Shown piece by piece: positions 358 to 15,242 of a DNA stretch of 64,000 nucleotides. How positions within the stretch are numbered: position 1 is the stretch's first letter; every line of letters starts with the position of its first letter. Made by a program: the position numbers and the translations under genes. The notes beneath the pieces are model-generated. The model ran no database searches. It was not told where the DNA came from and saw only the letters and a program-made list of their open reading frames with translations. The stretch spans positions 124,001-188,000 of the forward strand of contig NZ_AULA01000001.1 in NCBI RefSeq assembly GCF_000425045.1, given 5' to 3'. The stretch comes from Acidaminococcus intestini DSM 21505. GTDB taxonomy: Bacteria > Bacillota > Negativicutes > Acidaminococcales > Acidaminococcaceae.

Positions 358-1188
358 TTACTCCTTAAAGTCTGTTCTGTTGCTGGTTACTTCCCATGCC
401 TTATATTCATCAAGGCGAGCTGTAAGCCGCGATTTGCCGTAAGCCTGGGCATCGCTTCCGAGGAGGAGGCGCAGGGGCATCTTCCCGCTGTGCACAAGGT
501 CCACAAGGACGCGGCCCGCTTCATCAGGATCGCCCTGCTGCGTGCCATCAGTATGGTCGTTGCGGATGCGGCGCGTACCGGCCGTCTTTTCGTAGTCCCC
601 CAGTTCCACGCTCGATTCCTTAAGGGACGTGCCGGCAAAATTCGTACGGAAGGCACCGGGTTCAATGATCATGACATGGATTCCCAAGTCCTTCGTTTCC
701 CCGTAAAGGGCTTCCGAGATGGATTCCAAGGCGCTTTTTGTGGCGGCATAGTAGCCGGATCCCAAGGCTGCGCCCAAAGCGGCGATGGACGAAACGTTCG
801 CAATGGTGCCGCGATGGTTCTTCCGCATGATGGGAAGGACGGCTTTTATGAGGGCAATGGGTCCGAAAAGATTCGTCTGGAAGAGCTGGTCCACTTCTTT
901 TGGAACGCCTTCTTCCACGGCAGCGCGGTAGCCATAGCCGGCGTTATTGATGAGGACGTCGATGGTGCCAAAGCGCTCCAAGCCTTTTTCTACGGCATTT
1001 TTGATGTCTTCTTCCTTCGTAACGTCAAGGGACAGGGCAAGGGCTTGCTCTGGATAGGCATCCACCAAGTCTTTCAAGGTTTCGACGCGGCGCGCCGTCA
1101 CAATCACCTGGTCCCCACTTTTAAGGACGGCTTTCGCAAAGCCCCGTCCAAGGCCGGAGGAACAGCCTGTAATAAGCCAAGTCTGCAT
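358..1188 (-). CDS. Short-chain dehydrogenase/reductase (SDR)
   Basis: A 276-residue classical SDR and probable cytoplasmic NAD(P)-dependent oxidoreductase. The cofactor motif TGCSSGLGRG is at residues 8-17, NNAG lies near residue 85, and the catalytic Ser and YxxxK (YYAATK) are around residues 135-155. The start is supported by an AAAAGGAG ribosome site about 9 nt upstream. It is the same length as the SDR just upstream (1260-2090), and the two look like an old tandem duplication that has diverged. It sits in an operon with a dienelactone-hydrolase-like enzyme and a flavodoxin-fold reductase. The substrate is unknown. Confidence 0.88.
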   Translation of the reverse strand: MQTWLITGCSSGLGRGFAKAVLKSGDQVIVTARRVETLKDLVDAYPEQALALSLDVTKEEDIKNAVEKGLERFGTIDVLINNAGYGYRAAVEEGVPKEVDQLFQTNLFGPIALIKAVLPIMRKNHRGTIANVSSIAALGAALGSGYYAATKSALESISEALYGETKDLGIHVMIIEPGAFRTNFAGTSLKESSVELGDYEKTAGTRRIRNDHTDGTQQGDPDEAGRVLVDLVHSGKMPLRLLLGSDAQAYGKSRLTARLDEYKAWEVTSNRTDFKE

Positions 1189-1259: not shown

Positions 1260-2090
1260 TTATTCTTCAAAATCCGTCTTCGACGCAGCCGCTTCATAAG
1301 ACGCAATGTCTTTTAGTTCCGCCTCATAGCGTGCTTTCATAGCCCGGCAGCAGGCAGCACCAATGAGGATACGCGGCGGCAGGTTCCCCTTTTCCACCAT
1401 ATCTAGGAGGAACTGGGCGGCCTTTTGCGGATTGCCTGTCTGGGTGTAGGTATTTTCCGCAAGGAACTTTGCGGCTTTATGGGCGCTGCTGTCCTTGTAG
1501 GCATCAAGCCTTGCAGAAGGATTCCTAAAGGAATGCTTGCTTCTGAAATCGGTCCGGAAAGAACCTGGGCAAACAGCAGACACAGCAATGCCAAATTCGC
1601 CAAGCTCTGCCCGCAAGACATCGGACAGACCGACGACGGCGAATTTTGCGGCGCAATACGCGCTGCTCCCGCTAAAGCCCATGAGCCCGCCTTGGCTTGA
1701 AACGTTCAGGATGACGCCCTTCCCCGCCTTTCTCATGAGGGGAATGACGCGGCGCGTAACGTTTACGACGCCAAAGTAATCCGTTTCAAAAAGGTTCCGC
1801 AGGTCTTCGTCCGTCGTTTCTTCAAAAGCCCCGCTGAAGCCAAAGCCTGCGTTATTGATGAGGACATCGATGCGGCCAAAACGATCCATCCCATCCTTGA
1901 TGGCCTTTTCCACTTCGTCCGTCTTCGTCACGTCCATGACCACGGTGAGGACGGAAGGATGTTTGAAAATGTCATCATGGGGAACGCGGCGCACGGTGGC
2001 AATAACCTTATCGCCCCGTTTTACCGCTTCTTCCGTAAAGGCACGGCCAAACCCGCGGCTTGCTCCCGTAATGAACCATACTCGTTCCAT
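1260..2090 (-). CDS. Short-chain dehydrogenase/reductase (SDR)
   Basis: A 276-residue classical SDR. TGASRGFGRAF at residues 8-18 is the Rossmann cofactor loop, NNAG follows near residue 88, and the catalytic tetrad includes the Ser of NVSSQGG and YCAAK. Gly-Phe-Gly in the cofactor loop is typical of the subgroup often annotated as oxidoreductase or SDR family NAD(P)-dependent. It begins 13 bp after the upstream hydrolase stops, with a GGAGTG ribosome site, and is followed 71 bp later by its paralogue at 358-1188. All are presumably transcribed from the MerR-type promoter at 3363-3393. The substrate is unknown. Confidence 0.88.
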   Translation of the reverse strand: MERVWFITGASRGFGRAFTEEAVKRGDKVIATVRRVPHDDIFKHPSVLTVVMDVTKTDEVEKAIKDGMDRFGRIDVLINNAGFGFSGAFEETTDEDLRNLFETDYFGVVNVTRRVIPLMRKAGKGVILNVSSQGGLMGFSGSSAYCAAKFAVVGLSDVLRAELGEFGIAVSAVCPGSFRTDFRSKHSFRNPSARLDAYKDSSAHKAAKFLAENTYTQTGNPQKAAQFLLDMVEKGNLPPRILIGAACCRAMKARYEAELKDIASYEAAASKTDFEE

Positions 2091-2103: not shown

Positions 2104-3267
2104 TTAAAGATTGCCTTTGTAGAAGGAAGCCAATTTGCCTTCGATTTCATTGACGTATTTCGGAACCCAATAGGTCTGGATGTGGGTAGCCCCTTTGACG
2201 AGGTAGAGTTCCTTGTTATTCGTGCCCGTCGCCTTCTTGAAGGCGTCCTGCGTCATGTAGAGCGTATCAGCCTTGTCACCGGCAATCATGAGGAGCGGCT
2301 GGTTGATCAAGTCCATATTGTCTGCCTCATCAAAGGTAAAGAGGTCGAGGTTGCTGCGGACCGTGTACTGGAAGGTAGAGTTAGGATGACGATGGGTCTT
2401 CCCATAATAGATGTAGCCTTCGCTGTAAAGGGTCGGCATCTTCTTCAGTTCTTCTTCAGGGATATCCTGGGTTTCCATGCCCGCGGTGCGTTTGATGGCC
2501 GCACCCTTTGCTTCGGCGGCGCGCTGCTGACTCGATTCAAGGAGCCGCTTTTGGATCGTGTCACGGCCGCTGTTCAAAAAGCCATTGCGGCGAACGATGC
2601 CGAAGTTGAACATGGAAAGCGTTGCTACCGCCTTGACGCGCTTATCCGTCTGGGTTGCCTTCAAGGTGTAGCCACCGCCGCCGCAGATACCAAGGGCACC
2701 GATGCGGCTGTCATCGACGCCAGGATAGGACGCAATCACGTCAACCATGCCGTGGATATCTTCCGTGCGGAAGGCAGGATTGTCGAGCATATGGGGCGTA
2801 CCGCCGCTGGCACCTTGGAAGGAAGCATCGGCTGTAATGGTGATATAGCCTTCTTCCGCAAGTTTCTGGGCATAAAGGCCTGCCACCTGTTCCTTGACGC
2901 CGCCATTTGGATGAGCCACGACGATGGCCGGATATTTCTTTCCGCTCGTCTTGTCGTAACCTGCCGGCGTATAGATATTCGCAGCTATGGTGTTGCCATT
3001 GAGGGTATAGCGGACGGGGTGGATGTTGACCTTGCCGTTTTCATTCTTCGTAATCGCCCCTTGATAAACAAGGCCAAAAGGATTCTTGTTAGGGCTCTTG
3101 ATATCCTTTAAGGGAATCTCCACAAGATTGGCTCCGCCATAAAAAGTAATGCCGTTATTTTTGATATCTTTTACGGAATCAGCGGCAGGGGCGGCATACC
3201 CCACGGCCCCAAGGGCCATGACACTGGAAAGGACGAGGGCTGCTGCAGCCATTTTCTTTACCTTCAT
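2104..3267 (-). CDS. Exported alpha/beta hydrolase, dienelactone-hydrolase-like
   Basis: A 387-residue protein with a clear Sec signal peptide (residues 1 to about 26: MKVKK, Ala/Leu-rich core, VGYAAPA cleavage region), so it is probably periplasmic. It has the alpha/beta-hydrolase fold: an oxyanion strand AIVVAHPNGG near residue 115 and a nucleophile elbow GICGGGGY near residue 195. The elbow has Cys rather than Ser at its centre, as in dienelactone hydrolases. A late Asp (AGDKAD) and His (ATHIQ) would complete the triad. It is first in an operon with two SDRs and a flavodoxin-fold protein, under the MerR-type promoter at 3363-3393. The substrate is unknown. Confidence 0.8.
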   Translation of the reverse strand: MKVKKMAAAALVLSSVMALGAVGYAAPAADSVKDIKNNGITFYGGANLVEIPLKDIKSPNKNPFGLVYQGAITKNENGKVNIHPVRYTLNGNTIAANIYTPAGYDKTSGKKYPAIVVAHPNGGVKEQVAGLYAQKLAEEGYITITADASFQGASGGTPHMLDNPAFRTEDIHGMVDVIASYPGVDDSRIGALGICGGGGYTLKATQTDKRVKAVATLSMFNFGIVRRNGFLNSGRDTIQKRLLESSQQRAAEAKGAAIKRTAGMETQDIPEEELKKMPTLYSEGYIYYGKTHRHPNSTFQYTVRSNLDLFTFDEADNMDLINQPLLMIAGDKADTLYMTQDAFKKATGTNNKELYLVKGATHIQTYWVPKYVNEIEGKLASFYKGNL

Positions 3268-3362: not shown

Positions 3363-3393
3363 ACTTTACTATTCGGTAGTTGCTACCTGTCAA
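3363..3393 (-). promoter_or_regulatory. MerR-type promoter with GGTAG-TTG-CTACC dyad
   Basis: Read on the minus strand: a perfect -35 TTGACA (3388-3393), a 19-bp spacer, and -10 TAAAGT (3363-3368). The first 13 bp of the spacer (3375-3387) form a perfect inverted repeat, GGTAG-N3-CTACC. A 19-bp spacer holding a dyad is the hallmark of promoters activated by MerR-family proteins through DNA distortion. The same layout appears at 9722-9752 and 14629-14659, and the only MerR gene in the window is at 14790. It would drive the hydrolase-SDR-SDR-flavodoxin operon. Confidence 0.75.
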
Positions 3394-3589
3394 TAGTTTT
3401 TCTAAAAAATATCTGGAATTTTTTAGAATGGAATAATTAAGTATTTGTCGGATGTTCTTGGAAGCCTACGAAATCCTTATATCGGTAGATTGTACCGGAT
3501 AAAAAAACATCGTCTGTAATGCTAAAAACAGCAAGCAGCTTTCATGCAGTCTTCTCCGAAGCACAATCCCGTACCTACCGAGCAAAGGG

Positions 3590-4290
3590 AAAACCGTGCA
3601 GACGCGAACCCAAACCGTCCCCTGACGGGGGAGCGGGTTCGAAAAGATTTGCCCGGAAACATGTGCCTGCGACATTTCGTTCTCGCTCCAAAAGCGTCCT
3701 TCGAAACTTCGGGCAAATGGTCCTCACTACCGTTCGTAATGAAACGTCGCTGTGCGTCCTCATCCACCACCGAAACCGGAAAATGGTAATGATAAACGCT
3801 TATGGAAATTTCCACACAACATGAGTGCCAATAAATTATGTTAGCGGCCCCGTCGTACACGAAAACGGTTCCCCTATCTCTGCGACCGCAATGGATTTAT
3901 ACGGGTACAGCTGTAGGGGATAAAAGGGCTCACTCTCTGCTGTTCCACACCAGAAGACCGGCCTTTCCGGCAGAGGAAACTCCGAATGCTCCTATCGTCG
4001 CTGCCCTCTGAGTAAGCTTTCTGCACAAATTTTTCAGCATAAGAGAAAACGAAAAATTCGGCGACTCACTTAACCGCCCTGCACGATCTCTTGTTTCGCT
4101 TTTTCTAAGGCAGATGGAAGTTCGCGTATCGAGCTCAGAGGCAAAAAAAAAGATGGGGATTGTTCTAAGCGCTATCGTTATCTTCCCATTTCAAAGAAGC
4201 AGCCTCTTACAAAATCCAAATAAAAACCAAGAGCCCAAAACCGAACCTGCGTCTATGTTCGGTTTTGGGCTTGCTTTATAATCTTTTACC
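3590..4290 (+). repeat. Left copy of a roughly 700-bp inverted non-coding repeat
   Basis: This stretch matches the reverse complement of 15430-16170. Similarity comes in blocks. The strongest covers about 3995-4100, containing TTTCAGCATAAGAGAAAACG inside a GAATTTTTC/GAAAAATTC hairpin and then GGCGACTCACTTAACC. Others include CGTCGTACACGAA, AATGGATTTATACGGGT, GGCCTTTCCGGCAGAGGAAA and CCAAACCGTCCCCTGACGGGG. Both copies have the CAAAACCGAAC hairpin at the same end. No reading frame is conserved between the copies. A third, partial copy lies at about 12285-12482. It is either a decayed mobile element or a structured RNA; I cannot name the family. Confidence 0.75.
4232..4271 (-). terminator. Bidirectional-looking terminator hairpin at the end of the left repeat
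   Basis: A perfect 15-bp stem (AGCCCAAAACCGAAC, 10-nt loop, complementary arm). On the minus strand it is followed by CTTGGTTTTTATTTGG, so it can end the carboxylesterase transcript that stops at 4505. The same hairpin, with one mismatch, ends the merR transcript at 15455-15494. Between here and the esterase stop (4291-4504) I see nothing else. Confidence 0.7.
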
Positions 4291-4504
4291 TGGTGGTCTT
4301 TCTCCCATTTGTTTTTTATCAATTCGGTTCAGCGGGGTCCGTCCAATTGTGAGGAGCCCTCACTTCCACTGACAAAATTCTCACAGCCACAGGTTTCTAT
4401 GCGTCCGTATTTTCTCCCATTGCATTCGTATAGAATTAAGCAATGGAGGCACGCTGCAGTGGAGAATCAGAGCACTTTTTACTCCAACCCCACACCCTCT
4501 ATTC

Positions 4505-6232
4505 TTAATATGTATAACCCGGATCAAGAAGCTTCAAAAGGGCTTCGTCATGGTGACGGGCAAGGCGGATCTTGTTGTCAAAAATCATGGTGGCGCCGCT
4601 GTCCTTCGTATACGCGTCCCACTTCGGCAGGGCATCCGTCTGCGGCGTCCCATAGCGGGCAAAATGGACCCAAGCGTCACTCATGCGGTCTTCCAGGATA
4701 TGTGCTTCCTTGCTTCCGCCAGTACGGCTCAGCATGCGGTCCACATTATGGAAGACAAAGGGGATTTCCGCCGTATGATAGGACATGTACGTCCCAACCA
4801 TAAGCGGCGATTCCCAACTGAAAAGATAGGCGTAGACCGGAGCTCCGCCTTGTGCGGCCTTACGGCGCATAATCTTCAAGATTGGCTGGCGGATCAGGGT
4901 ATCGATATAAAGGGCATCGGCCTTTTTCTTATTGGGATACGCCTTTAGAAATTCGCTCACGACGGCGTCTTTTTTATCGCCGTAGGCCTGTTTGAGGCGC
5001 TTTTCTACTTCAGCATCCGTCCAGGTATTTTTATTGTCATACTGACGGTCCGCAGCGTCTACAATATCCTGAAACCCTGTCCATTCCGTCAAGTTGGTCC
5101 CAATGAGCAGCGGCACCTTGCGGCCCGCTTCGGCAAAGCCTGTTTCCGTCACAGGGTTGGTGGGAAGGAAATCCCCATCGACGACAGGTTCCCAGCTAAG
5201 ACCGTAGCCTGTCCCGAGGGCCTGAGGGACCTTATATTCGGTGCCCACGGTCTTAAGGGCTTTACGCGAGGCTGCGGCAAGCGTTTCATAAGGAATCGTC
5301 TGCAGGCGTTCGAGATTGTCCTTTGTCACGCCCAGCTCTTTCAAAGTAAGATCTGTCACTTTTTCACTCTGCTCTTTGCTCATGACGTAGGGGCCCATGG
5401 ACTCGACGGCGCCGCTTTCCACGATGCCTTTTTGGAAGAGCCCTTTTGCACTCGGAGCAGTCATGAGGGTGAGCACCTTGGCACCGCCGCCGGATTCACC
5501 AAAGATGGTGACGTTTTGCGGGTCGCCGCCAAAGGAGGCAATGTTATGTTTCACCCATTTGAGGGCATCCACAAGGTCTACGATTCCAATGTTGGCCGAA
5601 TCCTTATACTGGGGGCCATATTTTTCAAGGTTGAAATGACCGGCAAGGTTCAAGCGGTGATTCACGGAAACAACGACCACATCACCGCGACGGCTGAGGT
5701 TGGCGCCGTCATAAGCGGGTGACTCCAGGGAAGAACCGGCTTCAAAACCGCCGCCATGGAGCCAAACCATGACGGGGCGCTTTTTCCCATCCGTGAGGTT
5801 TGGTGTCCACACGTTGAGGTTCAAGCAGTTATTATCCATGGTAAAACTGCGGCCCGGTTCTCCCCACTCCCCATTGGGAAAATTGCCTTGGGCCTGAGGT
5901 GAAATGGGGCCGACCTGCGTTGCCATACGGATCCCGCGCCACGGCTTCACTGGTTTTGCGGCCTCAAAGCGGTGCGTGGCTTCCGCATAGGGAATGCCAT
6001 AATAGGAATAGATCCCATTTTTGATGAATCCTTGTACGCGGCCCGCGTCCGTCTCTGTCACGGCAATTCCGGGTCCCGCCTGAAAAGTCTGGTCTTTTTG
6101 GGAAAGGGATGCTTGAACGCGAGCAGCCGCTTTTTCGGCAGCAAGCGTCGGTGCAGCAGCTCTGGCAAAAGCCGGGGCCGATGAAAGCAAAGCAGAAAGA
6201 ACAAGTAACGATACCCATTTTGAAGATTGCAT
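4505..6232 (-). CDS. Exported type-B carboxylesterase
   Basis: A 575-residue carboxylesterase/para-nitrobenzyl-esterase family protein that hydrolyses ester bonds. It has a Sec signal peptide (residues 1 to about 24, ending near AFARAAA), the family signature from Tyr-Gly-Ile-Pro-Tyr to WLHGGGFEAGS (oxyanion hole), the nucleophile elbow FGESGGG, and a C-terminal catalytic-His region HTAEIPFVF. An in-frame ATG lies 75 bp upstream, but an AAAGGAGG site 5 nt before this ATG and the position of the signal peptide favour the start given. It ends about 230 bp from the terminator hairpin at 4232. No promoter dyad of the island type was found upstream, so its membership of the MerR regulon is unclear. 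Confidence 0.88.
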   Translation of the reverse strand: MQSSKWVSLLVLSALLSSAPAFARAAAPTLAAEKAAARVQASLSQKDQTFQAGPGIAVTETDAGRVQGFIKNGIYSYYGIPYAEATHRFEAAKPVKPWRGIRMATQVGPISPQAQGNFPNGEWGEPGRSFTMDNNCLNLNVWTPNLTDGKKRPVMVWLHGGGFEAGSSLESPAYDGANLSRRGDVVVVSVNHRLNLAGHFNLEKYGPQYKDSANIGIVDLVDALKWVKHNIASFGGDPQNVTIFGESGGGAKVLTLMTAPSAKGLFQKGIVESGAVESMGPYVMSKEQSEKVTDLTLKELGVTKDNLERLQTIPYETLAAASRKALKTVGTEYKVPQALGTGYGLSWEPVVDGDFLPTNPVTETGFAEAGRKVPLLIGTNLTEWTGFQDIVDAADRQYDNKNTWTDAEVEKRLKQAYGDKKDAVVSEFLKAYPNKKKADALYIDTLIRQPILKIMRRKAAQGGAPVYAYLFSWESPLMVGTYMSYHTAEIPFVFHNVDRMLSRTGGSKEAHILEDRMSDAWVHFARYGTPQTDALPKWDAYTKDSGATMIFDNKIRLARHHDEALLKLLDPGYTY

Positions 6233-6665
6233 AAAAACCTCCTTTATTTTTACTCGACGCATGGATGGCGCCGATCTGCTCCAGTTAAACCAGACTTCTT
6301 TTTTCATGATTCACCCAATCGGTCATGCAGCTAAAGAAAACCGCTCATGATCAAGCGCTTTATTTCTGTCAGTTTTGCACACTAGGGGTTTCTTATCTAC
6401 TGGCAGAAGTCCTGCGTCAATCTGGGCGATTTTCTTTAGTCGTACAACTTTATGGGACGATGATTAAGCCTATGGTTTTGACTTTTAGAGCAAGATCCGC
6501 AGGCTTTAGACAGCCTTAAGGCCTTTAGGCCAGCCACCTCGGGCGGTCTGAGCCAAGCTGCACCACAACATCTTTTCCAGCTGACGCTTGGCACAGCTTT
6601 TTTGCGGTATTCAGCCGGTCATATTTTTTACTAGCTTTAACCTCACAGTTATAGGCCGCTTTTCT
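6233..6665. other. Intergenic stretch with a plus-strand terminator-like hairpin
   Basis: 433 bp between the dehydrogenase stop and the esterase start. About 6554-6603 can form GCCAAGCTG...CAGCTgacGCTTGGC followed 5 nt later by six T on the plus strand. A 64-codon plus-strand reading frame (6325-6519) has no recognisable similarity and no good ribosome site. I see no promoter consensus that can be defended. Confidence 0.4.
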
Positions 6666-7832
6666 TTAATACGCCTCCTCAAAGATTTCTCTGATTTCTT
6701 CCTTACCCAGCTGCCGGAAGCTGCCGGGAGAAGCAACGCAGCCAGCGGCAACGTCAACAAGGACGGCATGGTCGATGTTCATGTCGCGCAGTCTCGTTGG
6801 AAGGCCGATTTCCTTGATAAAAGCGGTCAGGGCCTCGATGCCTTTTTGGGCACGCGTCAGTTCGTCGCCTTCACTAGGGTCGATATCAAAGACTTTTTCA
6901 GCAAAACGGGCAAACTTTTTGGTCCCATCCTTTACGATATGACGGTAGTAGACGGGATGCAGTACGGCAAGACCAGCGCCGTGGTTGCAGAAGGTATAGG
7001 CGCCCAGGCTGTGTTCCAGGATGTGGCACTGGAAGTCCGTCTTCTTTCCCAGTTTGAGGATCCGGTTTTCCGCCATAGTCGCAAGCCATACAAGGTTGCT
7101 GCGGGCTCCTTCGTCGTGAGGATCCACAAGGATGGCCCGGATATTATCGACAGCGCTTCTCATAAGGGCTTCGTTCATGACGTCAGACACGTTATTGTCA
7201 TTGGGTTCACTGAAATAGATTTCCATCATATGGGAGAGGCTGTCAAAAGCACCGGAGATGAACTGGAATTTCGGCACTGTTTCCGTATATTTGGGGTTCA
7301 AGATGGCAAATTGAGCGTTCAGTTCCGGATAGTCGCGGCCCGTCTTTACTTTGAGGGATTCGTTTGTAATGACGCTGCCGCCGTTCGTTTCACTCCCCGT
7401 TCCCGATACGGTAAGGACAATGCCAAGGGGAATGGGTTTTGTTTCGATCTTACCAGCATGGGCCCAATACGCGTCCCACAGGTCCCCATCATAGACGGCA
7501 CCAAGAGAAATGGCTTTGGAGCAGTCCATGACGCTGCCGCCGCCTACAGCCAGAATGAGGTCCACCTTTTCTTTTTTAGCAAGGGCTGCCCCTTCAAGGA
7601 CCTTGGCATAGGTCGGGTTGCTGCGGATGCCGGAAAATTCGACAACGGTCTTGCCGGCTGTCTTAAGATATCCCATGATTTCTTCATAGATACCCGTTTT
7701 CTTGATGCTGCCCCCACCGTAGGTCAGCATGACCTTGGGGCCGTATTGAGCGAGCAGGCCCGGCAGATAAGTGGAGACACTATCGTTTCCAAAATAGACT
7801 TTCGTAGAATTTTGAAACACGAAACTATTCAT
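6666..7832 (-). CDS. Iron-containing alcohol dehydrogenase (butanol-dehydrogenase-like)
   Basis: A 388-residue group III Fe-dependent alcohol dehydrogenase reducing aldehydes or oxidising alcohols with NAD(P)H. Visible are the cofactor loop GGGSVMDCSKA (near residue 93) and metal-binding Asp/His residues in the DSLSHMMEIYFS and HSLGAYTFCNHGAGLAVLHP segments. No signal peptide, so cytoplasmic. A GTG codon 9 bp upstream is in frame, but the ATG used here has AAAGGTG at proper spacing. It lies 103 bp after the lipoprotein flavodoxin gene, separated by a hairpin (7879-7914), so it may be transcribed by partial read-through from the 9722-9752 promoter. Confidence 0.9.
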   Translation of the reverse strand: MNSFVFQNSTKVYFGNDSVSTYLPGLLAQYGPKVMLTYGGGSIKKTGIYEEIMGYLKTAGKTVVEFSGIRSNPTYAKVLEGAALAKKEKVDLILAVGGGSVMDCSKAISLGAVYDGDLWDAYWAHAGKIETKPIPLGIVLTVSGTGSETNGGSVITNESLKVKTGRDYPELNAQFAILNPKYTETVPKFQFISGAFDSLSHMMEIYFSEPNDNNVSDVMNEALMRSAVDNIRAILVDPHDEGARSNLVWLATMAENRILKLGKKTDFQCHILEHSLGAYTFCNHGAGLAVLHPVYYRHIVKDGTKKFARFAEKVFDIDPSEGDELTRAQKGIEALTAFIKEIGLPTRLRDMNIDHAVLVDVAAGCVASPGSFRQLGKEEIREIFEEAY

Positions 7833-7878
7833 GATTGTCACCTTTCTTTTTTCTTGTTTCCTTGTTTTTCACGGAAAA

Positions 7879-7914
7879 CCCCGGACCAAAGGACCAAAGG
7901 GCTCCAGTCCGGGG
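7879..7914 (-). terminator. Hairpin between flavodoxin and dehydrogenase genes
   Basis: CCCCGGAC (7879-7886) pairs with GTCCGGGG (7907-7914). On the minus strand only three or four T follow, so termination is probably partial. It lies directly after the flavodoxin stop codon. Confidence 0.5.
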
Positions 7915-7935
7915 TCTTTGACAATTTTTCATGGT

Positions 7936-8571
7936 TTATTTCAGGGATTTCACCCAGCTGATGACATCCTGGCTGAGCACGTTTCCTTCAAAGCGATGGC
8001 CTTCAAGCCATTTGCCCGTACCCGCTGCCTTTTCAAGATTTGTACCGCTGTCCCCCATTGGTGTAGACATGCTCGTGGCAAAAGGAATGACCGTCTTACC
8101 TGTAAAGTCATGCTTTTCTACAAAGGTGTAGACCACATGAGGTGCCTGACGCCACCAATGCGGGAAACCGATGAAGACGCGGTCGTATTTGGCCCAGTCC
8201 TTTGCGTCGCCTACATAATCCGGGCGCAGGGACGGATTATTGTGTTCTTTCTGAACACGGCTGTTTTTGTCATTGTAGTTCAAATCATTTAGCGTGTAGG
8301 GCTGTTCCGGTTTGATTTCAAAAAGGTCAGCGCCCGTTTCTTTGGCAATGGTCTCAGCGACCTTTTTCGTGTGACCTGTTGCGGAAAAATAGACGACGAG
8401 GGTCTTTCCGCTCTTATCCGCCATTGCGGCTGCGGCCGGCTTTGTCTCTTTTACGGGCTCCGTCTGCGCCGCCTGGCTGCTGCAGCCCGTACTCACAAGA
8501 AAGAGGCTCGTCAGCGTCACAACAGCGAAAACGTGGCGCAGGAGATTTTTAAAGGAAAATGCTTTCTGCAT
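7936..8571 (-). CDS. Flavodoxin-domain lipoprotein
   Basis: A 211-residue protein with a lipoprotein signal peptide (hydrophobic core, lipobox LVSTGC near residue 31) followed by a flavodoxin domain. The FMN-phosphate loop is YFSATGHTKK (about residues 64-73); GFPHWWRQAPHVV contributes the flavin-flanking loop. Export of a flavodoxin is unusual because FMN has to be supplied outside the cytoplasm and no twin-arginine motif is present. The start was chosen because AAGGAGG sits 10 nt upstream; an ATG 9 bp earlier would be only 1 nt from that site. It lies 15 bp after the hydrolase at 8587-9657. It is probably an envelope-bound electron carrier or FMN reductase. Confidence 0.85.
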   Translation of the reverse strand: MQKAFSFKNLLRHVFAVVTLTSLFLVSTGCSSQAAQTEPVKETKPAAAAMADKSGKTLVVYFSATGHTKKVAETIAKETGADLFEIKPEQPYTLNDLNYNDKNSRVQKEHNNPSLRPDYVGDAKDWAKYDRVFIGFPHWWRQAPHVVYTFVEKHDFTGKTVIPFATSMSTPMGDSGTNLEKAAGTGKWLEGHRFEGNVLSQDVISWVKSLK

Positions 8572-8586
8572 GCTTGTCATGCCTCC

Positions 8587-9657
8587 TTATCTAGCAAGCC
8601 CATTTGCTTTCATCCAGTCTTCCAGGATATCCGCAATGGCTTCATTATTCGTATCGCTCATGAGAAAGTGTGTGTTGCCCTTGATGCCTTTTTTCGGCAG
8701 GTGAAGGAGCGTTGCCTTGCCGCCGTGATGGTTGACCGCGTCGACCCACAGCTTTGCCATGGCAAGACGGACGCGCCAGTTATCAAGGTTCCATGCCTCC
8801 GTCCGTTCCGTCGGGATATTGTCGCCGTAGACGACGAGAATGGGTCTCTTCGTAAGTTTTTCAAAGTCCGAAAGCTTCACGGCCGTCCCTTTAAGGGCGC
8901 CGAAAGGACTTGACGTTTCCATAGGAGCGGGTACTTCGCCTTCGGGGAAGATGAAGCCGCTTCCCGGTTCAAGGGCAATGATGCCTTTCACATGATCACT
9001 TTTGATGGCCGTCCACCAGCCAGGACCGCCTCCCTGGGAGTGGGTCACAAGGACGCCGTCGCCGCTTCTTTCAAAGACCTTTGCCATAGCGTCGCTGATG
9101 ACCTGTTCATCAAAAGCACCCGTGTTGGGAGTCATGCTGCGGAAAAACTCTTCCCGTGCCGCTTCGTCCCACTTGACGTCGACACCGGGATAATAATTCG
9201 GATAGAGGCCAATGCGGAAGTTATCATACCAAAGCTGCTCCATGGGTGTCTTTGATACGGTTCCTCCCGTCGTTGACTGACCAGCTCGGCCGCGGCGGGG
9301 TTGATCCACGACGTAGGTGGCATACCCTTTTTCAAGGAAGATATTTTGGAAACCATCCCGCCCATCAGGCGTTGTTTCCCAGGTCTTGCCGGACTGACCG
9401 GCCCCATGAAGGAACACAATCACATTCTTTTTGGCCTTCACAGGCTTTTGATAGAACACATAGGCGTGATCACCGTGAAGGGTCTGACCGGAAGGATCAA
9501 GAGGCTTACTGTTATCGAGCGTTCCCGGTGCCGTCACAACCGTCCCCCCTGCCGTAAAACTTCCCTGGTCCGCAAGCGTCACAGGGTTATGGAAAGCTTC
9601 TGCAGAGGCCGTAAGAGCAAGGGAAAGGACGAGCGCCGCCAAAAGGTTCTGTTTCAT
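8587..9657 (-). CDS. Exported alpha/beta hydrolase
   Basis: A 356-residue protein with a Sec signal peptide (LLAALVLSLALTASAEAF). The oxyanion strand is IVFLHGAGQSGKTWE (near residue 80), the nucleophile elbow is THSQGG (Ser near 207), and an acid-bearing LVVYGDNIP and a late NTHFLM His complete the triad. It closely resembles the unsignalled paralogue at 10723-11772; both carry WETTPDGR-GFQ after the oxyanion loop and GNTHFLM near the C-terminus. It is first gene after the MerR-type promoter at 9722-9752, followed by the flavodoxin lipoprotein. An esterase or lactonase is likely; the substrate is unknown. Confidence 0.83.
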   Translation of the reverse strand: MKQNLLAALVLSLALTASAEAFHNPVTLADQGSFTAGGTVVTAPGTLDNSKPLDPSGQTLHGDHAYVFYQKPVKAKKNVIVFLHGAGQSGKTWETTPDGRDGFQNIFLEKGYATYVVDQPRRGRAGQSTTGGTVSKTPMEQLWYDNFRIGLYPNYYPGVDVKWDEAAREEFFRSMTPNTGAFDEQVISDAMAKVFERSGDGVLVTHSQGGGPGWWTAIKSDHVKGIIALEPGSGFIFPEGEVPAPMETSSPFGALKGTAVKLSDFEKLTKRPILVVYGDNIPTERTEAWNLDNWRVRLAMAKLWVDAVNHHGGKATLLHLPKKGIKGNTHFLMSDTNNEAIADILEDWMKANGLAR

Positions 9658-9721
9658 GGACTATTCCTCCTTAAGGTCTTATGATGATAGGGTTTTCATC
9701 GGTTCTTCTCTTCATGACTTT

Positions 9722-9752
9722 ATTCTACTATTCGGTAGTAAATACCGGTCAA
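9722..9752 (-). promoter_or_regulatory. MerR-type promoter with GGTAT-TTA-CTACC dyad
   Basis: On the minus strand: -35 TTGACC (9747-9752), a 19-bp spacer and -10 TAGAAT (9722-9727). The dyad occupies 9734-9746 with one mismatch from GGTAG-N3-CTACC. Geometry is identical to the promoters at 3363-3393 and 14629-14659. It would drive the hydrolase and the flavodoxin lipoprotein, perhaps with read-through to the dehydrogenase. Confidence 0.7.
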
Positions 9753-9789
9753 GTATTTTTTTATCCTTACCATTCTTTTTTTACAGCCC

Positions 9790-10710
9790 TCAGCCAAGTC
9801 CGGTGACAAGAGCAACTACCGGCATAGTGATGACCGCAGCGGCCGTTGTTACCGCAACACCTTGGACTGAAACAGGATAACCTTCTTTATTGTAGAGATT
9901 GGCCAAAAGAGGAATGACATTGCCCGACGGCGTAGCAAGGGCGGCCATCAAAACCGCAAGTAGGTAGGTGTTATCAACGAACTGTTTCAAGATAAGTGTC
10001 ACAACAATGGGGAGAACAAGCATTTTGAGGATGGTAAAAGCAATAATCTTCTGATTGATGAGGCTCTTCCAGTCCGTATCAAGGAGGAAGGAACCCAGGA
10101 GCATCATGGCAAGAGGGCCCGTCATGCTCCCCACCATACGGATAGAACTGGTAAGGATATAGGGCAGTTTGATGCCGGACAGATAGATAACAATGGCAAG
10201 GACGCAGGATATCATGCCCGGATTAACGAGGTTCTTCCAGCGAAAAGGTTCCTTGGCGCCACCACCGCCCTTGATGGTTTCAATGACATAGGAGAAAAAG
10301 AGCAGGTTGAAGGGAATGAGAAGAACCGTCATATAAATGAGCGCTTCCTTTCCATAAATAGCATCCACCATGGGAACGCCCATGAAGCCGATGTTCGTAA
10401 AGACGACCATGACGTTCACGATGCCTTTTTCCGCCTTGCCATAGTGAAGGATCCTCGGAATGAGGAAGGCTGCGAGCATCAAGAGGGCCAGCATGACAAC
10501 GACGACACCAAAAGCATAAAGAAGGGCACCGCCTTCCATATGGGGCCCATCTCCGGTCACACCGGAAAGGATGATGGCCGGATAAGCAACCTGCAGGACA
10601 AGCTGCGTAATCTGGCCCTGATTATCCGGCGTCAGGATATTCTTTTTCCGTGCCCAGGCGCCGACGACCATGATGATGACAAAAATCAGCATCTGCTGTA
10701 AGACTTGCAT
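9790..10710 (-). CDS. AEC-family transporter (auxin efflux carrier/malonate permease type)
   Basis: A 306-residue integral membrane protein with about ten hydrophobic segments in two five-helix halves. This is the auxin-efflux-carrier fold, which in bacteria includes malonate and other organic-acid carriers. The N-terminal half has LVLQVAYPAIILSG and the C-terminal half MAALATPSGNVIPLLANLY, the typical place for the conserved Pro-containing broken helices. It begins 12 bp after the hydrolase at 10723-11772, so the two form a pair, perhaps exporting or importing an acid related to the hydrolase reaction. The substrate cannot be deduced. Confidence 0.87.
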   Translation of the reverse strand: MQVLQQMLIFVIIMVVGAWARKKNILTPDNQGQITQLVLQVAYPAIILSGVTGDGPHMEGGALLYAFGVVVVMLALLMLAAFLIPRILHYGKAEKGIVNVMVVFTNIGFMGVPMVDAIYGKEALIYMTVLLIPFNLLFFSYVIETIKGGGGAKEPFRWKNLVNPGMISCVLAIVIYLSGIKLPYILTSSIRMVGSMTGPLAMMLLGSFLLDTDWKSLINQKIIAFTILKMLVLPIVVTLILKQFVDNTYLLAVLMAALATPSGNVIPLLANLYNKEGYPVSVQGVAVTTAAAVITMPVVALVTGLG

Positions 10711-10722
10711 GATAAAACCTCC

Positions 10723-11772
10723 TTAGGAAAGGCCCTTGGCAGAAAGCCAGTCCGCCATGAGACCTGCAATGACTTCATTGTTTTTATCGGCCATGAGGAA
10801 ATGGGTATTGCCCTTGATGCCAAGGTCGGGCAGATGGACGATTTCCGCCATCCCGCCGTGTCGGTTGACGCAGGACACAAATTCTTTTGCCATCATGAAT
10901 TCGCTGCGCCACTTATCGGGGCCAATTTCATCAGTCGTGCCATCCGAAATGTGGTCACCATAAAAAAGGACCATGGGAAGCTTCGTCAGGGCAAGGAAGG
11001 ACTCAAGGGGAACGCCCATGGCCTGGGCCTTGACGGGATCGTAGAGAGTCGGCACGGGTTCCGGTACTTCCCCTTCAGGAAAAATAAAGGGCGATCCACC
11101 CGGTTCAAAAGCGATAATGGCCTTGACCTTATCCGTGCGGAAGGGGGTGCGCCAGCCAATGGTGCCGCCCATGGAATGGGTCACGAGGATGGACGGGCCC
11201 ATCTTTTCAAGGAGTGCGGCCATGGCATTGGCACTCACATCGTCATCAAGTTCGCCTTCGTACGGCGTCCAAGAGCGCTGGAACTGGTTATACGTCTCAG
11301 CGTCGCCAGCCATGGCCGAATCTTCGTAGGGGACGGGCGTATCCCCGTCAAAAATGCCGCAGCGACAAAGCATGTACATCGTCTTATCGGCATACAGAGG
11401 ATTTTTTGCATAAGGATTGCGCCCGTCATCCGCTTTTAAGGCAAGACCGGCTTCCCCCATGCGGGGCTGGTCGATGAGGACCGTCGTGTAACCCTTGCGC
11501 AAAAAAAGGGTCTGAAAGCCTTCGCGGCCATCAGGCGTCGTTTCCCATGTCCGTTTGCACTGAGCGCCGCCGTGCTGAAAAATGAGCGGATAGGGACGCG
11601 CGTCCACGGGTACCTGGTAAAAGGCATAGGCATGGTCCCCATAGGCAATCTGTCCTTCTGGTTCAAGAAAATGGTCCGTGCGGAAAACGCCGTCATGTTT
11701 CAGCGTCGATCCGCCGATGGCAAAACTGCCTTGTTCAGCAATGATAAGAGGTTGTTTGGGGTTATTGGACAT
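10723..11772 (-). CDS. Cytoplasmic alpha/beta hydrolase, paralogue of 8587-9657
   Basis: 349 residues with no signal peptide. Shared with its exported paralogue are an oxyanion segment (QHGGAQCKRTWE near residue 65), WETTPDGREGFQ, an IDQPRMGEAG segment, the nucleophile elbow THSMGG (Ser near 196), FEPGGSPFIFPEG, and a C-terminal GNTHFLM that supplies the His. The pair therefore looks like one enzyme type kept in two compartments. It forms a two-gene unit with the AEC carrier downstream. Upstream is a GGAGCA-N5-TGCTCC dyad (11797-11813), unlike the island's other operators. Confidence 0.82.
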   Translation of the reverse strand: MSNNPKQPLIIAEQGSFAIGGSTLKHDGVFRTDHFLEPEGQIAYGDHAYAFYQVPVDARPYPLIFQHGGAQCKRTWETTPDGREGFQTLFLRKGYTTVLIDQPRMGEAGLALKADDGRNPYAKNPLYADKTMYMLCRCGIFDGDTPVPYEDSAMAGDAETYNQFQRSWTPYEGELDDDVSANAMAALLEKMGPSILVTHSMGGTIGWRTPFRTDKVKAIIAFEPGGSPFIFPEGEVPEPVPTLYDPVKAQAMGVPLESFLALTKLPMVLFYGDHISDGTTDEIGPDKWRSEFMMAKEFVSCVNRHGGMAEIVHLPDLGIKGNTHFLMADKNNEVIAGLMADWLSAKGLS

Positions 11773-11796
11773 GGTTGGTTCCTTTCTTTTTTACTT

Positions 11797-11813
11797 GGAG
11801 CAGAAATTGCTCC
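11797..11813. promoter_or_regulatory. Palindrome GGAGCA-N5-TGCTCC upstream of the hydrolase/AEC pair
   Basis: A perfect 6+6 dyad 24 bp before the hydrolase start. It could be an operator for a repressor encoded elsewhere. No convincing -35/-10 pair surrounds it, and it does not match the MerR dyad sequence. Confidence 0.35.
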
Positions 11814-11830
11814 GATTCGATGGAGTTAGG

Positions 11831-11875
11831 TGTCCCCATTACTGAAAAAAGATTTTCTTGATAGTAATGGGGACA
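11831..11875. terminator. 13-bp perfect hairpin of a dispersed CCCCATT family
   Basis: TGTCCCCATTACT pairs perfectly with AGTAATGGGGACA. Similar hairpins with a CCCCATT or CTCCATT stem occur at 19234-19277, 23625-23668, 38575-38611 and 43086-43130. Here there is no run of T on either side, so a repeat or RNA-processing role is as likely as termination. DNA to its right (to about 12030) resembles 19280-19440. Confidence 0.45.
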
Positions 11876-12249
11876 TGACCTATCGTAAGAAGTCACGTAA
11901 CACAAATTCATTTTAAAGTCACCCAAAAAAATGCCGTCGTCGGGCGGGCCACTCCTAAGAATATTTTCGGATTGCAGAAGAAACCTTTTTTGCCTACGGT
12001 CCATATCGACCCATCTGCGTTGTCAAACGCATAACAAATGTCTGCTAAGTTTATAATGGACGCCGGCTATATGTACTCAAATGCGGATCCGGTACTTTGG
12101 CAGCTGCCTGGTCCTATAAAAGGCGGCTGTAAGGGAAAAGACCAGAATGCAAAAGAACCAAAAGGCGTGACTAGTCCGAAGCACAGGGGTATCGCTCTTC
12201 GGATTATTTCCCTTGGGATGACAAGAAACGTGTTTTCAGGGGCGAGGGA

Positions 12250-12482
12250 CCAAAACCAGGAAAATTTTACAAGCATATATCATTAAAATTTCCTGGTTTT
12301 GGTGGTGGACGAGGACGCAAAGCGAACGTATCCTTGCAAGCGACAGCAAGGCTTATTCGCCCGGAGTCTCGAAGGACGCTTTTGGAGCGAAGCGGAAGTC
12401 CGAGAAACATGTTTGAGGGCGGATTAAGTTCGTTCCCACCCTTCGACGAAAGGACGTTTGGGGCCGAACTTACGGTCTTTTC
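12250..12482. repeat. Partial third copy of the island repeat, preceded by a long hairpin
   Basis: From about 12289 the sequence follows the right-hand repeat (15989-16200) in the same orientation: CCTGGTTTTGGTGGTGGACGAGGACGC, GACGCTTTTGGAGCGAAG, AACATGTTTGAG and GAACTTACGGTC all have counterparts there (longer strings shown only in part). Just before it, CCAAAACCAGGAAA (12250-12263) and TTTCCTGGTTTTGG (12289-12302) form a perfect 14-bp stem. About 100-150 bp to the left is a fragment, GGCGGCTGTAAGGGAAAAG, that matches the repeat in the opposite orientation, so this copy has been rearranged. The rest of 11876-12568 holds no gene I can support. Confidence 0.55.
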
Positions 12483-12568
12483 ACCAGCCGCCTCCGGTGG
12501 CCTTAGCCAAGGAAGGCCCTAATTATTTTGCCTTCCGCCTTAGCCGTTTGACGGGTACACCGTCAAAC

Positions 12569-13081
12569 TCATTCGATATCAGGATGTACGACCGCCTCAA
12601 ACCACTCCGTCGACACCCCTTCCTTCCGTTCCATCACAGCCACATGCTGAAAGGTGTGATGAGGTGCGGCACCATGCCAATGCTTGACGCCTTCGGGGAT
12701 GGTGACACTCTTTCCAGGGAGCAGTTTCTGCGGCTTTTCACCCCAGATCTGGTAATAGCCCTCCCCTGCCGTTCCCAGAAGGATCTGGCAGGACCCATGG
12801 TGGACGTGCCAATGTGTGCGGGCGCCGTCATAAAAAGTCACGGCGGCCGCCATAGGCCCTATGCTTGATAAGGGGGCTACGTAGCTATCCCCCGTAAAGT
12901 GGTCCACATTGCGGGCATTGTAGACGCCGACAGGAAAGGCCGCCGCCTTTTCCTCTTCCAGTGCTTTTTGTACAACAGCGACGTCCGTCGGTGCAGCAAA
13001 AGTCGTTCCCACATTCATGATAAGGGCTGCACAAAATGACAGGAGACCTGCTTTTTTTAGGAAATTCTTTCGCATTCTCAC
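12569..13081 (-). CDS. Exported cupin-domain protein
   Basis: A 170-residue protein with a signal peptide (residues 1 to about 30, ending GTTFAAP) and one cupin barrel. Metal ligands are probably in HWHVHHGSCQ (cupin motif 1, near residue 100) and the motif-2 histidine in PEGVKHWHGAAPHH. Similar small cupins accompany carboxymuconolactone-decarboxylase-like proteins in many bacterial redox operons. Its start codon overlaps the stop of the upstream flavoprotein gene by 4 bp (ATGA), implying translational coupling. It is last gene of the operon led by the promoter at 14629-14659; a hairpin GTTTGACGG...CCGTCAAAC begins at its stop codon. The catalytic role is unknown. Confidence 0.85.
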   Translation of the reverse strand: MRMRKNFLKKAGLLSFCAALIMNVGTTFAAPTDVAVVQKALEEEKAAAFPVGVYNARNVDHFTGDSYVAPLSSIGPMAAAVTFYDGARTHWHVHHGSCQILLGTAGEGYYQIWGEKPQKLLPGKSVTIPEGVKHWHGAAPHHTFQHVAVMERKEGVSTEWFEAVVHPDIE

Positions 13082-13725
13082 GCCTCCTCTCCGTGGATAA
13101 AGTTCATGAAGGCGGCCGGCTCTTTTTTGGGCTGGGCAAGATTGGCCTTTTTTGCAAGCTCCATGGCTTTCAGGAGATAGGCCATATTGCGGCCCAATAC
13201 GTGCAGGGTCCAGACCCCTTCCTTATCCTTAAGGACTTCTTCCGCCGTCGTGCCATGGACCTGGTTCCAATAGCGGCTCGAGACAATGGGCATTTCTTGG
13301 ATGGCAAAGTACTTGTTCATCTCGTCAAAGGCCGCCGTGGTCCCCGCCCTGCGGGCACTGATGACGGCTGCGGCCGGTTTGAGGTAAAATGCTTTGTTGC
13401 CGTTTCCCCGTGCCTCAGAATAAAAAGCCCGGTCGAGAAACGTCTTCATATTCCCCGCAAGAGCCGCATAGTGGACGGGCGACCCAAAAAGAAAGCCGTC
13501 TGCCTCTAAGGCCTTTTTGCGGAATACATTCACGGCGTCATCAAAAACGCAGTCATGACGCTTGTCACACTGATGACAGGCGATGCAGCCACCAATGGGT
13601 TTGATGCCGATCCAAAATTCCTCCGTTTCAATTCCCTCTTCGTGGAGGACATCAGCCACAAGGCCAAGGGCTGTATGGGTGCAGCCATTTTTATGGGGAG
13701 AACCGTTTACAAGTAAAACTTTCAT
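13078..13725 (-). CDS. Iron-sulfur flavoprotein / NADPH-dependent FMN reductase family
   Basis: 215 residues of flavodoxin-like fold. The FMN loop NGSPHKNGCTH is at residues 7-17, and a compact cysteine motif C-x2-C-x2-C-x5-C (about residues 48-60, GCIACHQCDKRHDC) follows. That spacing is the mark of the iron-sulfur flavoprotein group, where it binds a 4Fe-4S cluster next to FMN. GSPVHYAALAGNMKTFLDR supplies the flavin loop. It is cytoplasmic, as no signal peptide is present. It lies between the carboxymuconolactone-decarboxylase-like gene (18 bp upstream) and the overlapping cupin gene. It probably moves electrons for the operon's reductive chemistry. Confidence 0.85.
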   Translation of the reverse strand: MKVLLVNGSPHKNGCTHTALGLVADVLHEEGIETEEFWIGIKPIGGCIACHQCDKRHDCVFDDAVNVFRKKALEADGFLFGSPVHYAALAGNMKTFLDRAFYSEARGNGNKAFYLKPAAAVISARRAGTTAAFDEMNKYFAIQEMPIVSSRYWNQVHGTTAEEVLKDKEGVWTLHVLGRNMAYLLKAMELAKKANLAQPKKEPAAFMNFIHGEEA

Positions 13726-13743
13726 ATTGATTCATTCGCTCCT

Positions 13744-14574
13744 TTATTTTTTAGGAAAAGCTTCGTTTGCAGCCCGCAGGTTATTGAGGGTCCGCGGGAA
13801 ACCGACATAGGGGTTGAGGACCGTGAGCACGCCGATTACTTCGTCTTCCGTAGCTCCTGCCGCAAGATAGCCCCGCACATGGGATTTAAACTGCGGTTCG
13901 TCATTGCCAAGGGTGCCGATCGCTGCGACCGTGAGCATTTCCCGTGTCTTAAGATCCAAACTTCTGCGCGTGTAAATATCGCCAAAACAAAAGGCCGACA
14001 GGTCATCCTGCAGATGTTTTTGGTTAGCTGGCGTGTTTTTGCGCATAGTCACGATGCGCTCGCCATAAGTTGCAACCTGGAAGGCAAGGCCCTTTTCAAG
14101 GCGGTCTCCATCCGTCGTTGCGGCCTGGTTTTCAAGGGGCAGTTTCACCCCTTCTTCCTTAAAGACGCGGTTTACGCGTTCCATAGCTGTCAGCACCTTA
14201 GGAAAGCCAATATAGGGCGCCAGATGGTAAATGGCCTCGCGCACGTCAAGGGGCGTCACACCGTCAGTCAAGGCGCCGCGGACATTCTTTTCAAGTAAGT
14301 CTTGTGCCCCGCTTGCCGTGAGGGTTGCTATGGTCACAAGGTGCTGTTCCCGCCGCGTGAGACGGGCCTGTTCCATAATATCTCCATAAATATAGCCCTT
14401 CATCATAGCCTCAAGTTCTGGATCGGTCTTCTCAAGACCGAGCGACTGCTCTGCCATGGCGGTTTTGTAGTTTCTCTCCGCCACATCACTGCGGCCGGAC
14501 CCAGCTGCTGCAAAACCGCTCCCACCTAGGATGCCAAAAAGACCAAGGGTCATGCCAATGATTTTCCAATTCAT
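13744..14574 (-). CDS. Exported protein with two carboxymuconolactone-decarboxylase-like domains
   Basis: 276 residues: a signal peptide (residues 1 to about 25), then two repeats of the AhpD/CMD helical domain. Domain 1 (about 60-135) has RREQHLVTIATLTASGAQ and YIGFPKVLTAMERVN; domain 2 (about 185-270) has KTREMLTVAAIGTLGN and YVGFPRTLNNLRAAN. Neither carries the CxxC of AhpD peroxidase partners, so a thiol peroxidase role is unlikely, and the true reaction is unknown. It is the first gene of the operon (then flavoprotein and cupin) and is divergent from merR, the usual arrangement for a regulated target. Confidence 0.85.
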   Translation of the reverse strand: MNWKIIGMTLGLFGILGGSGFAAAGSGRSDVAERNYKTAMAEQSLGLEKTDPELEAMMKGYIYGDIMEQARLTRREQHLVTIATLTASGAQDLLEKNVRGALTDGVTPLDVREAIYHLAPYIGFPKVLTAMERVNRVFKEEGVKLPLENQAATTDGDRLEKGLAFQVATYGERIVTMRKNTPANQKHLQDDLSAFCFGDIYTRRSLDLKTREMLTVAAIGTLGNDEPQFKSHVRGYLAAGATEDEVIGVLTVLNPYVGFPRTLNNLRAANEAFPKK

Positions 14575-14628
14575 AAAAACACCTCATTTCCATTAGGATG
14601 GCTGTCATGGTTTCCATTCGATGGCCCC

Positions 14629-14659
14629 ACTGTATCATCCGGGAGCAACTACCTGTCAA
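14629..14659 (-). promoter_or_regulatory. MerR-type promoter with GGTAG-TTG-CTCCC dyad
   Basis: On the minus strand: -35 TTGACA (14654-14659), a 19-bp spacer and -10 TACAGT (14629-14634). The dyad at 14641-14653 differs from GGTAG-N3-CTACC at one base. It lies in the 215-bp space between the divergent merR gene and the CMD-like gene, and it drives the CMD/flavoprotein/cupin operon. Confidence 0.75.
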
Positions 14660-14682
14660 TACTTTTTTCAAAGAAAAACAAT

Positions 14683-14753
14683 TTGCTATTTAGCGGCATT
14701 TTATATATAATAACCGAAGCTCGTCATGTGTTTCTTTTTCGGTAATTAATACC
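14683..14753 (+). promoter_or_regulatory. merR promoter and autoregulatory-looking dyad
   Basis: The plus strand shows -35 TTGCTA (14683-14688), a 17-bp spacer and a perfect -10 TATAAT (14706-14711). Downstream at 14741-14753 is GGTAA-TTA-ATACC, a relative of the operator in the three island promoters. It sits in the transcribed leader about 37 bp before the start codon and is not inside a 19-bp spacer, so binding there would be expected to repress rather than activate. Confidence 0.6.
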
Positions 14754-14789
14754 GCAAAGCATCCGATACCCCTAGAAGGAGGAAACACA

Positions 14790-15242
14790 ATGGATAAAGA
14801 AATCAAAGAGAAACTTCATATTGAAAAAGTCGTCAACACAGGAAGACTTTACCCCATGAAAGAAGCCTGTGAGCAAACGGGCCTTGCCTATGAAACCCTA
14901 AAATTTTACTGCAACATCGGCCTTGTTCCCGGCGTCAAACGGGATGCCAGGAACCGCCGCGTCTTTAACGACAAGGACATTTCCTGGATCAAGAGCCTCA
15001 CATGCCTCAAAAACTGCGACATGTCCATCGAGGAAATGAAGGAATACCTCGCCCTGTGCCTGAAAGGCCAGTCCACCATCCCAGAACGAAAAGAAATGCT
15101 CATGAAAAAACGGGCCATCCTCATCAAAAAGCATAGCGAAATCCAGGCCGCCATTGAATATATCGACCTTAAACAGGATTTTTATGATGAAGTATTGAGC
15201 GGAAAGATCGAGTATTTCAGTAATCTGGTGGGGGAGGAATAA
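14790..15242 (+). CDS. MerR-family transcriptional regulator
   Basis: 150 residues. An N-terminal winged helix-turn-helix (about residues 20-85) has the MerR pattern: YPMKEACEQTGLAYETLKFYCNIG, partly shown, where MerR proteins have the Tyr/Glu-rich recognition helix, then GLVPGVKRDARNRRVF and DISWIKSLTCLKNCDMSIEEM. A long coiled-coil dimerisation helix follows (about 100-140). No conserved C-terminal Cys pair for metal sensing is visible, so an organic or electrophilic signal is more likely. A strong GAAGGAGGAAACACA ribosome site precedes the ATG. It is the probable regulator of the three promoters that carry the dyad; the ligand is unknown. Confidence 0.9.
   Translation: MDKEIKEKLHIEKVVNTGRLYPMKEACEQTGLAYETLKFYCNIGLVPGVKRDARNRRVFNDKDISWIKSLTCLKNCDMSIEEMKEYLALCLKGQSTIPERKEMLMKKRAILIKKHSEIQAAIEYIDLKQDFYDEVLSGKIEYFSNLVGEE

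Follow-up and report, generated by a model that had tools for sequence, protein, structure and literature searches.

The locus examined here raises the question of whether a single MerR-family regulator switches on several separate sets of enzyme genes through one DNA element, in a kind of organism, the strict gut anaerobes, in which stress regulation is poorly mapped. The window (the whole stretch of 64,000 nucleotides of Acidaminococcus intestini DSM 21505 that was analysed, contig positions 124,001 to 188,000) holds three promoters with a 19-bp spacer, each with a dyad directly 3' of the -35 box (Table 1). The original prediction had placed three such promoters at these positions with zero or one dyad mismatch each; counted against the reference GGTAG-N3-CTACC, the mismatches were indeed 0, 1 and 1. 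A dyad inside an over-long (19-20 bp) spacer between the -35 and -10 boxes is a MerR-family feature, and all three promoters display it.

A genome-wide search with the combined -35 and dyad pattern (TTGACNGGTANNNNNTNCC) returned exactly three matches in the 2.28 Mb genome, which are the three claimed promoters, while the matches with one mismatch found elsewhere in the genome (n = 4) all scored below 5 bits at the promoter level. A 31-bp matrix was built from 72 sites that all lie outside the genus and are independent of the window sites. With this matrix promoters 1 to 3 scored 34.4, 34.1 and 33.9 bits, the next best position in the 64-kb window scored 0.1, and the maximum in simulated windows (n = 12) was 12.0. 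By itself, with as many as two mismatches allowed, the dyad was not enriched in the window (19 found versus 14.0 ± 3.7 expected); the decisive observation is that the dyad in promoter geometry, unlike the bare dyad, is enriched. One further dyad, at 3483-3497 (CGGTAGATTGTACCG), was set aside as a chance occurrence, since its score is a mere 7.7 and promoter boxes at 19-bp spacing are absent.

Table 1. Features of the window. Operon assignments are predicted, and signal peptides were judged by eye; G and L numbers denote congener genomes and genome loci.
Feature	Coordinates	Strand	Remarks
Flavodoxin-like/NADPH-FMN-reductase-like ORF	1..352	-	Operon 1, fourth gene; continues about 92 bp past the window edge (L173:9909-10352); family judged by sequence
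SDR	358..1188	-	Operon 1
SDR	1260..2090	-	Operon 1; orthologues under own distant operator in G005, G007
Dienelactone-hydrolase/S15-like alpha/beta hydrolase	2104..3267	-	Operon 1, first gene; apparent signal peptide; orthologues under same operator in G005, G006, G007
Promoter/operator 1	3363..3393	-	TTGACA-GGTAGCAACTACCGAATAG-TAAAGT; dyad GGTAG-CAA-CTACC(G); about 95 bp upstream of hydrolase start
Carboxylesterase	4505..6307	-	Probable end of operon 2, separated from the preceding gene by about 360 bp; apparent signal peptide; same order in G005, G006
Iron-containing alcohol dehydrogenase	6666..7841	-	Operon 2; best NCBIfam PRK15138, below cut-off
Flavodoxin (Flavodoxin_4)	7936..8580	-	Operon 2; apparent lipoprotein signal
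Alpha/beta hydrolase	8587..9657	-	Operon 2, first gene; apparent signal peptide; orthologue under operator in G005, G006, G007, G008
Promoter/operator 2	9722..9752	-	TTGACC-GGTATTTACTACCGAATAG-TAGAAT; dyad GGTAT-TTA-CTACC(G); 64 bp upstream of start codon
Cupin	12569..13081	-	Operon 3; apparent signal peptide; NCBIfam mandelonitrile-lyase-like, below cut-off
NADPH-dependent FMN reductase family	13078..13725	-	Operon 3
Double-CMD-domain (carboxymuconolactone-decarboxylase family) protein	13744..14574	-	Operon 3, first gene; apparent signal peptide; orthologues under operator in L008, G005, G006
Promoter/operator 3	14629..14659	-	TTGACA-GGTAGTTGCTCCCGGATGA-TACAGT; dyad GGTAG-TTG-CTCCC(G); 54 bp upstream of start codon; divergent from merR
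merR promoter, ordinary sigma-70-type	14683..14711	+	TTGCTA-17-TATAAT
Fourth dyad	14740..14754	+	CGGTA-ATTAA-TACCG (CGGTAATTAATACCG); merR leader; 2 mismatches; operator-like
MerR-family regulator	14790..15242	+	150 aa, NmlR/AdhR-like; cysteines C27, C41, C72, C76, C90

Gene spacing suggests that the genes behind each promoter would be co-transcribed, with the carboxylesterase beyond its gap as a likely addition to operon 2. The original claim of three operons stood, with the correction that operon 1 extends past the window edge into a fourth ORF. Just outside the window, a gene for a LysR-type regulator (L173:8832-9716, family from sequence) converges on the end of operon 1.

The link between regulator and operator was studied in 80 genome loci that encode an orthologue of the window's MerR protein, and in congeners. 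TTGACN followed by the dyad (up to two mismatches) was found 100 times in the 1.19 Mb of orthologue loci and congeners, versus 4 times for a reversed control pattern. When sites were chosen by the -35 box and dyad only, with no -10 box assumed, a spacing of 19 bp gave the best -10 box in 91 of 109 cases, and the site consensus was AAAAA-N3-C-TTGACC-GGTAG[TC][AT][AG]CTACCG-N2-TG-N-TA[TC][AG][AC]T. The matrix-scored promoter was present at 76 of the 80 orthologue loci and at none of 23 loci of NmlR-like paralogues. As for the four exceptions, L077 is cut at a contig end, L073 has a diverged site, and L059 and L086 (both from spirochaetes) carry, as judged by eye, a site of this type in which the dyad is shifted by about 1 base within a 19-bp spacer. 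Many paralogue loci carry another dyad, TTGACT-T[AG][AG]AGT-N2-ACT-like, in the 19-bp spacer, so that NmlR-like proteins adjoin a different operator from that of the window regulator. The sites at NmlR-like paralogue loci of the same bacterial family are TTGACT-TAAAGTGAACTTTAA-like, and the AGT-N2-ACT operator type does not occur at the window regulator's own sites.

Within the genus, genomes carrying the orthologue have exact promoter sites, and no exact site was found in congeners G001 and G004, which have no MerR match, or in G002, which has only a remote paralogue (E 3.7e-17). A survey of 398 genomes of the phylum found the orthologue in 8, four of which carry exact sites scoring at least 34; the only two exact matches outside orthologue carriers scored 9.1 or below 5. 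Since the loci were gathered via the regulator, the weight of the association is carried by the paralogue and no-orthologue controls. These comparisons strongly support the MerR protein encoded in the window as the putative regulator acting through this operator. The absence of sites where the gene is absent, and the targets that congeners share under the operator, likewise favour the original claim of one MerR protein serving three operons through MerR-type 19-bp promoters. It is very probable that one five-cysteine regulator turns on three detoxification-type enzyme gene sets via a common DNA switch. This pair of regulator and switch is also present in many other gut anaerobes. In the open-access literature searched, the operator strings tried had no match in the relevant bacterial regulation papers, and nothing specific to this regulon was found.

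By its sequence, the regulator is NmlR/AdhR-like yet distinct. It has the MerR-type winged HTH and dimerisation helix (Pfam MerR_1, 47.6 bits versus a cut-off of 21.6), and its predicted model matches MerR-family structures, but with 82.7 bits against a curated cut-off of 175 it falls outside NCBIfam NmlR (NF041849). The predicted fold (mean pLDDT 92) is closest to Haemophilus influenzae NmlR (HiNmlR; PDB 5D8C, 5D90, 5E01), described as 'lacking the sensor domain' (Z 13.6, 125 residues, rmsd 3.5), which is also its best profile match in the PDB. Both proteins have a MerR fold without a separate sensor domain, and no separate ligand-binding domain is present in the window regulator. Long-spacer promoters are shared with the NmlR family as well, although identity to HiNmlR is only about 30%. 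The five cysteines are near-invariant among 88 sequences (C27 in 82, C41 in 88, C72 in 87, C76 in 88 and C90 in 87), whereas NmlR-like paralogues usually retain C72 only. C72 aligns with C54 of HiNmlR, the conserved NmlR/AdhR sensor cysteine; the other four conserved cysteines are additional to those of HiNmlR.

A second relative, AdhR (YraB) of Bacillus subtilis, responds to formaldehyde and methylglyoxal by controlling an alcohol dehydrogenase and YraC, a protein of the CMD family, and its conserved cysteine C52, the formaldehyde-sensing position, is needed for the response to formaldehyde (PMC4776306, review). The window regulator shares with AdhR the alcohol dehydrogenase and CMD-family proteins among its predicted targets and, judged from the published description, a conserved sensor cysteine at the same position, but the AdhR target is the thiol-dependent AdhA instead of an iron-containing enzyme, and the breadth of the regulons differs. 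SoxR is comparable as a redox-responsive MerR-family activator on a long-spacer promoter; however, its cluster resides in a C-terminal loop, while the cysteines of the window regulator lie in the HTH and helices 3-4. The last of them is residue 90 of 150, and a SoxR-type C-terminal cysteine cluster is thus lacking.

The 'small-molecule sensor' of the original prediction needs correction in this light, as the model makes a small-molecule pocket unlikely. Since there is no ligand domain, the closest structures are those 'lacking the sensor domain' and five cysteines are near-invariant, a thiol (or metal/cluster) sensor is likelier, with thiol chemistry as the simplest reading and metal or cluster binding as its main rival. 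From the aldo/keto reductase, flavodoxin-type reductase and alcohol dehydrogenase targets found elsewhere, and from the one homologous cysteine, we infer a thiol-based carbonyl/quinone sensor rather than a pocket-type one.

Taken as a whole, we consider it probable that an electrophile-responsive five-cysteine MerR protein switches three detoxification operons via spacer dyads. This reading builds on results computed here: the presence of the sites and the fact that they are unique in the genome, the association of regulator and operator across genomes, the conserved set of five cysteines, and the reductases that recur as targets. The regulator, a distant NmlR/AdhR relative, would bind the dyad inside the 19-bp spacers of the three promoters and, without inducer, would keep them in an over-long, poorly used form. 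An electrophile, either a reactive carbonyl or a quinone, or possibly some other oxidant of thiols, would then react with the cysteines, and the modified regulator would distort the spacer so that the -35 and -10 boxes come into register. Operon 1 would thereby provide a hydrolase, two SDRs and a flavin reductase, operon 2 a hydrolase, a lipoprotein-type flavodoxin and an iron-containing alcohol dehydrogenase (with the carboxylesterase), and operon 3 the CMD protein, an FMN reductase and the cupin. Working together, and in part outside the cytoplasm, these products may reduce or hydrolyse reactive carbonyls, quinones and esters.

The same regulon and operator could also serve a regulator that holds a metal or an iron-sulphur cluster by its five cysteines, in which case the signal would be redox state, oxygen or metal and not direct electrophile modification. 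We regard this as rather unlikely. The near-invariant set, including C72-x3-C76, is absent as a set from the paralogues, all recognised named organisms carrying the gene are anaerobes, and within the MerR family SoxR carries a [2Fe-2S] cluster (PMC9909328), all of which would agree with bound metal; but the cysteines are scattered between the HTH and helix 4, unlike the C-terminal loop arrangement of SoxR, CueR and MerR, no metal-efflux gene is among the commonest target families, and bound metal is absent from the HiNmlR structures (PMC9909328).

Target genes in other genomes bear on the purpose of the regulon. In the congeners G005, G006, G007 and G008, orthologues of the first genes of the window operons lie under the same operator, and an SDR target was kept despite rearrangement: in G005 and G007 it is distant from merR but under an operator of its own. 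Of 96 first downstream genes outside the genus, 52 code for aldo/keto reductases, some of which carry 4Fe-4S domains; other first genes encode an iron-containing alcohol dehydrogenase, flavodoxin, flavin reductase or hydrolase, and the next genes FMN reductases and flavodoxins. The window hydrolases and esterases would also fit dietary ester release or breakdown, and the regulon might then handle plant or dietary esters and phenolics instead of stress: esterases would free phenolic acids, reductases and SDRs would process them, and a product would be the inducer. This has a small chance of being correct. The Acidaminococcus version does combine several apparently exported hydrolases with a carboxylesterase and a CMD protein, and an RraA-like aldolase gene is nearby, but hydrolase targets are largely limited to Negativicutes versions of the regulon, the targets elsewhere being chiefly aldo/keto and flavin reductases, and the regulator has no pocket domain. 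It is extremely unlikely that the dyads arose by chance or belong to some general promoter element that has nothing to do with this MerR protein, because the near-chance frequency of the bare two-mismatch dyad in the window is outweighed by the promoter-level score, the genome-wide uniqueness and the co-occurrence with the gene.

Two arrangements of the operator away from merR were noted in passing. In congener G005, the first gene under a distant operator copy encodes a 4Fe-4S dicluster protein (L147:6718-7512), and divergent operator-promoter pairs, a few dozen bases apart, occur in an Oscillospiraceae MAG (L080:4500-4600) and in Selenomonas ruminantium (L053:5900-5975).

Dozens of genomes show the regulator, its exact operator and its targets side by side, so that a simple pattern search is enough to predict the regulon. 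For the electrophile-sensing reading, the five conserved cysteines pose a concrete and testable question: by what means would a MerR protein that has no ligand domain detect electrophiles? Only tentatively can a larger picture be proposed, in which this MerR clade, unnamed in the open-access literature searched, would combine a five-cysteine sensor (a thiol relay, zinc or iron-sulphur site) in the DNA-binding half with an operator code of its own. It might then act as the chief switch for carbonyl/quinone stress in many gut anaerobes (Bacillota, Bifidobacterium, Eggerthellaceae, some spirochaetes), controlling a partly extracytoplasmic detoxification set in Acidaminococcus.

Lastly, the fourth related dyad that had been claimed for the merR leader is present. 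The transcription start predicted for the ordinary merR promoter is about 22-36 bp upstream of this dyad, and no -35 or -10 box at 19-bp spacing was found for it in the leader. Its dyad score of 14.0 is close to the 15.0 of promoter 3; scores like it occurred twice in 2 Mb of intergenic-like simulated sequence, which corresponds to about 0.0001 expected in the leader (in a post hoc test). The fourth dyad is thus operator-like, and a chance origin is unlikely. In the congeners G003 and G008, a complete 19-bp operator-promoter in the merR leader reads into merR, which suggests auto-activation there; none was seen by eye in G005, G006 and L008. Autoregulation in the genus is therefore probable, apparently as activation in G003 and G008. 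In the window genome, the fourth dyad, which lacks promoter boxes, could be a roadblock or a remnant, and feedback on merR through it, originally predicted as repression, is possible.

A hydrolase gene and an AEC-type transporter gene at 9790-11772 have no recognisable operator in the window, while their orthologues are under the operator in G005 and also in G006, where the transporter gene comes first. The gap at 11840-12560, which separates this hydrolase gene from the cupin gene, is made up of short interspersed repeats, two modules of about 190 bp with 44 genome matches, and further copies are located at 3651-3813 and 15964-16126. Because the hydrolase has its own operator in G005, repeat insertion may have displaced the operator here. 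Within this repeat-rich gap, at 12255-12300, a long AT-rich inverted repeat (CCAGGAAATTTT ... AAAATTTTCCTGG) was recognised by eye.
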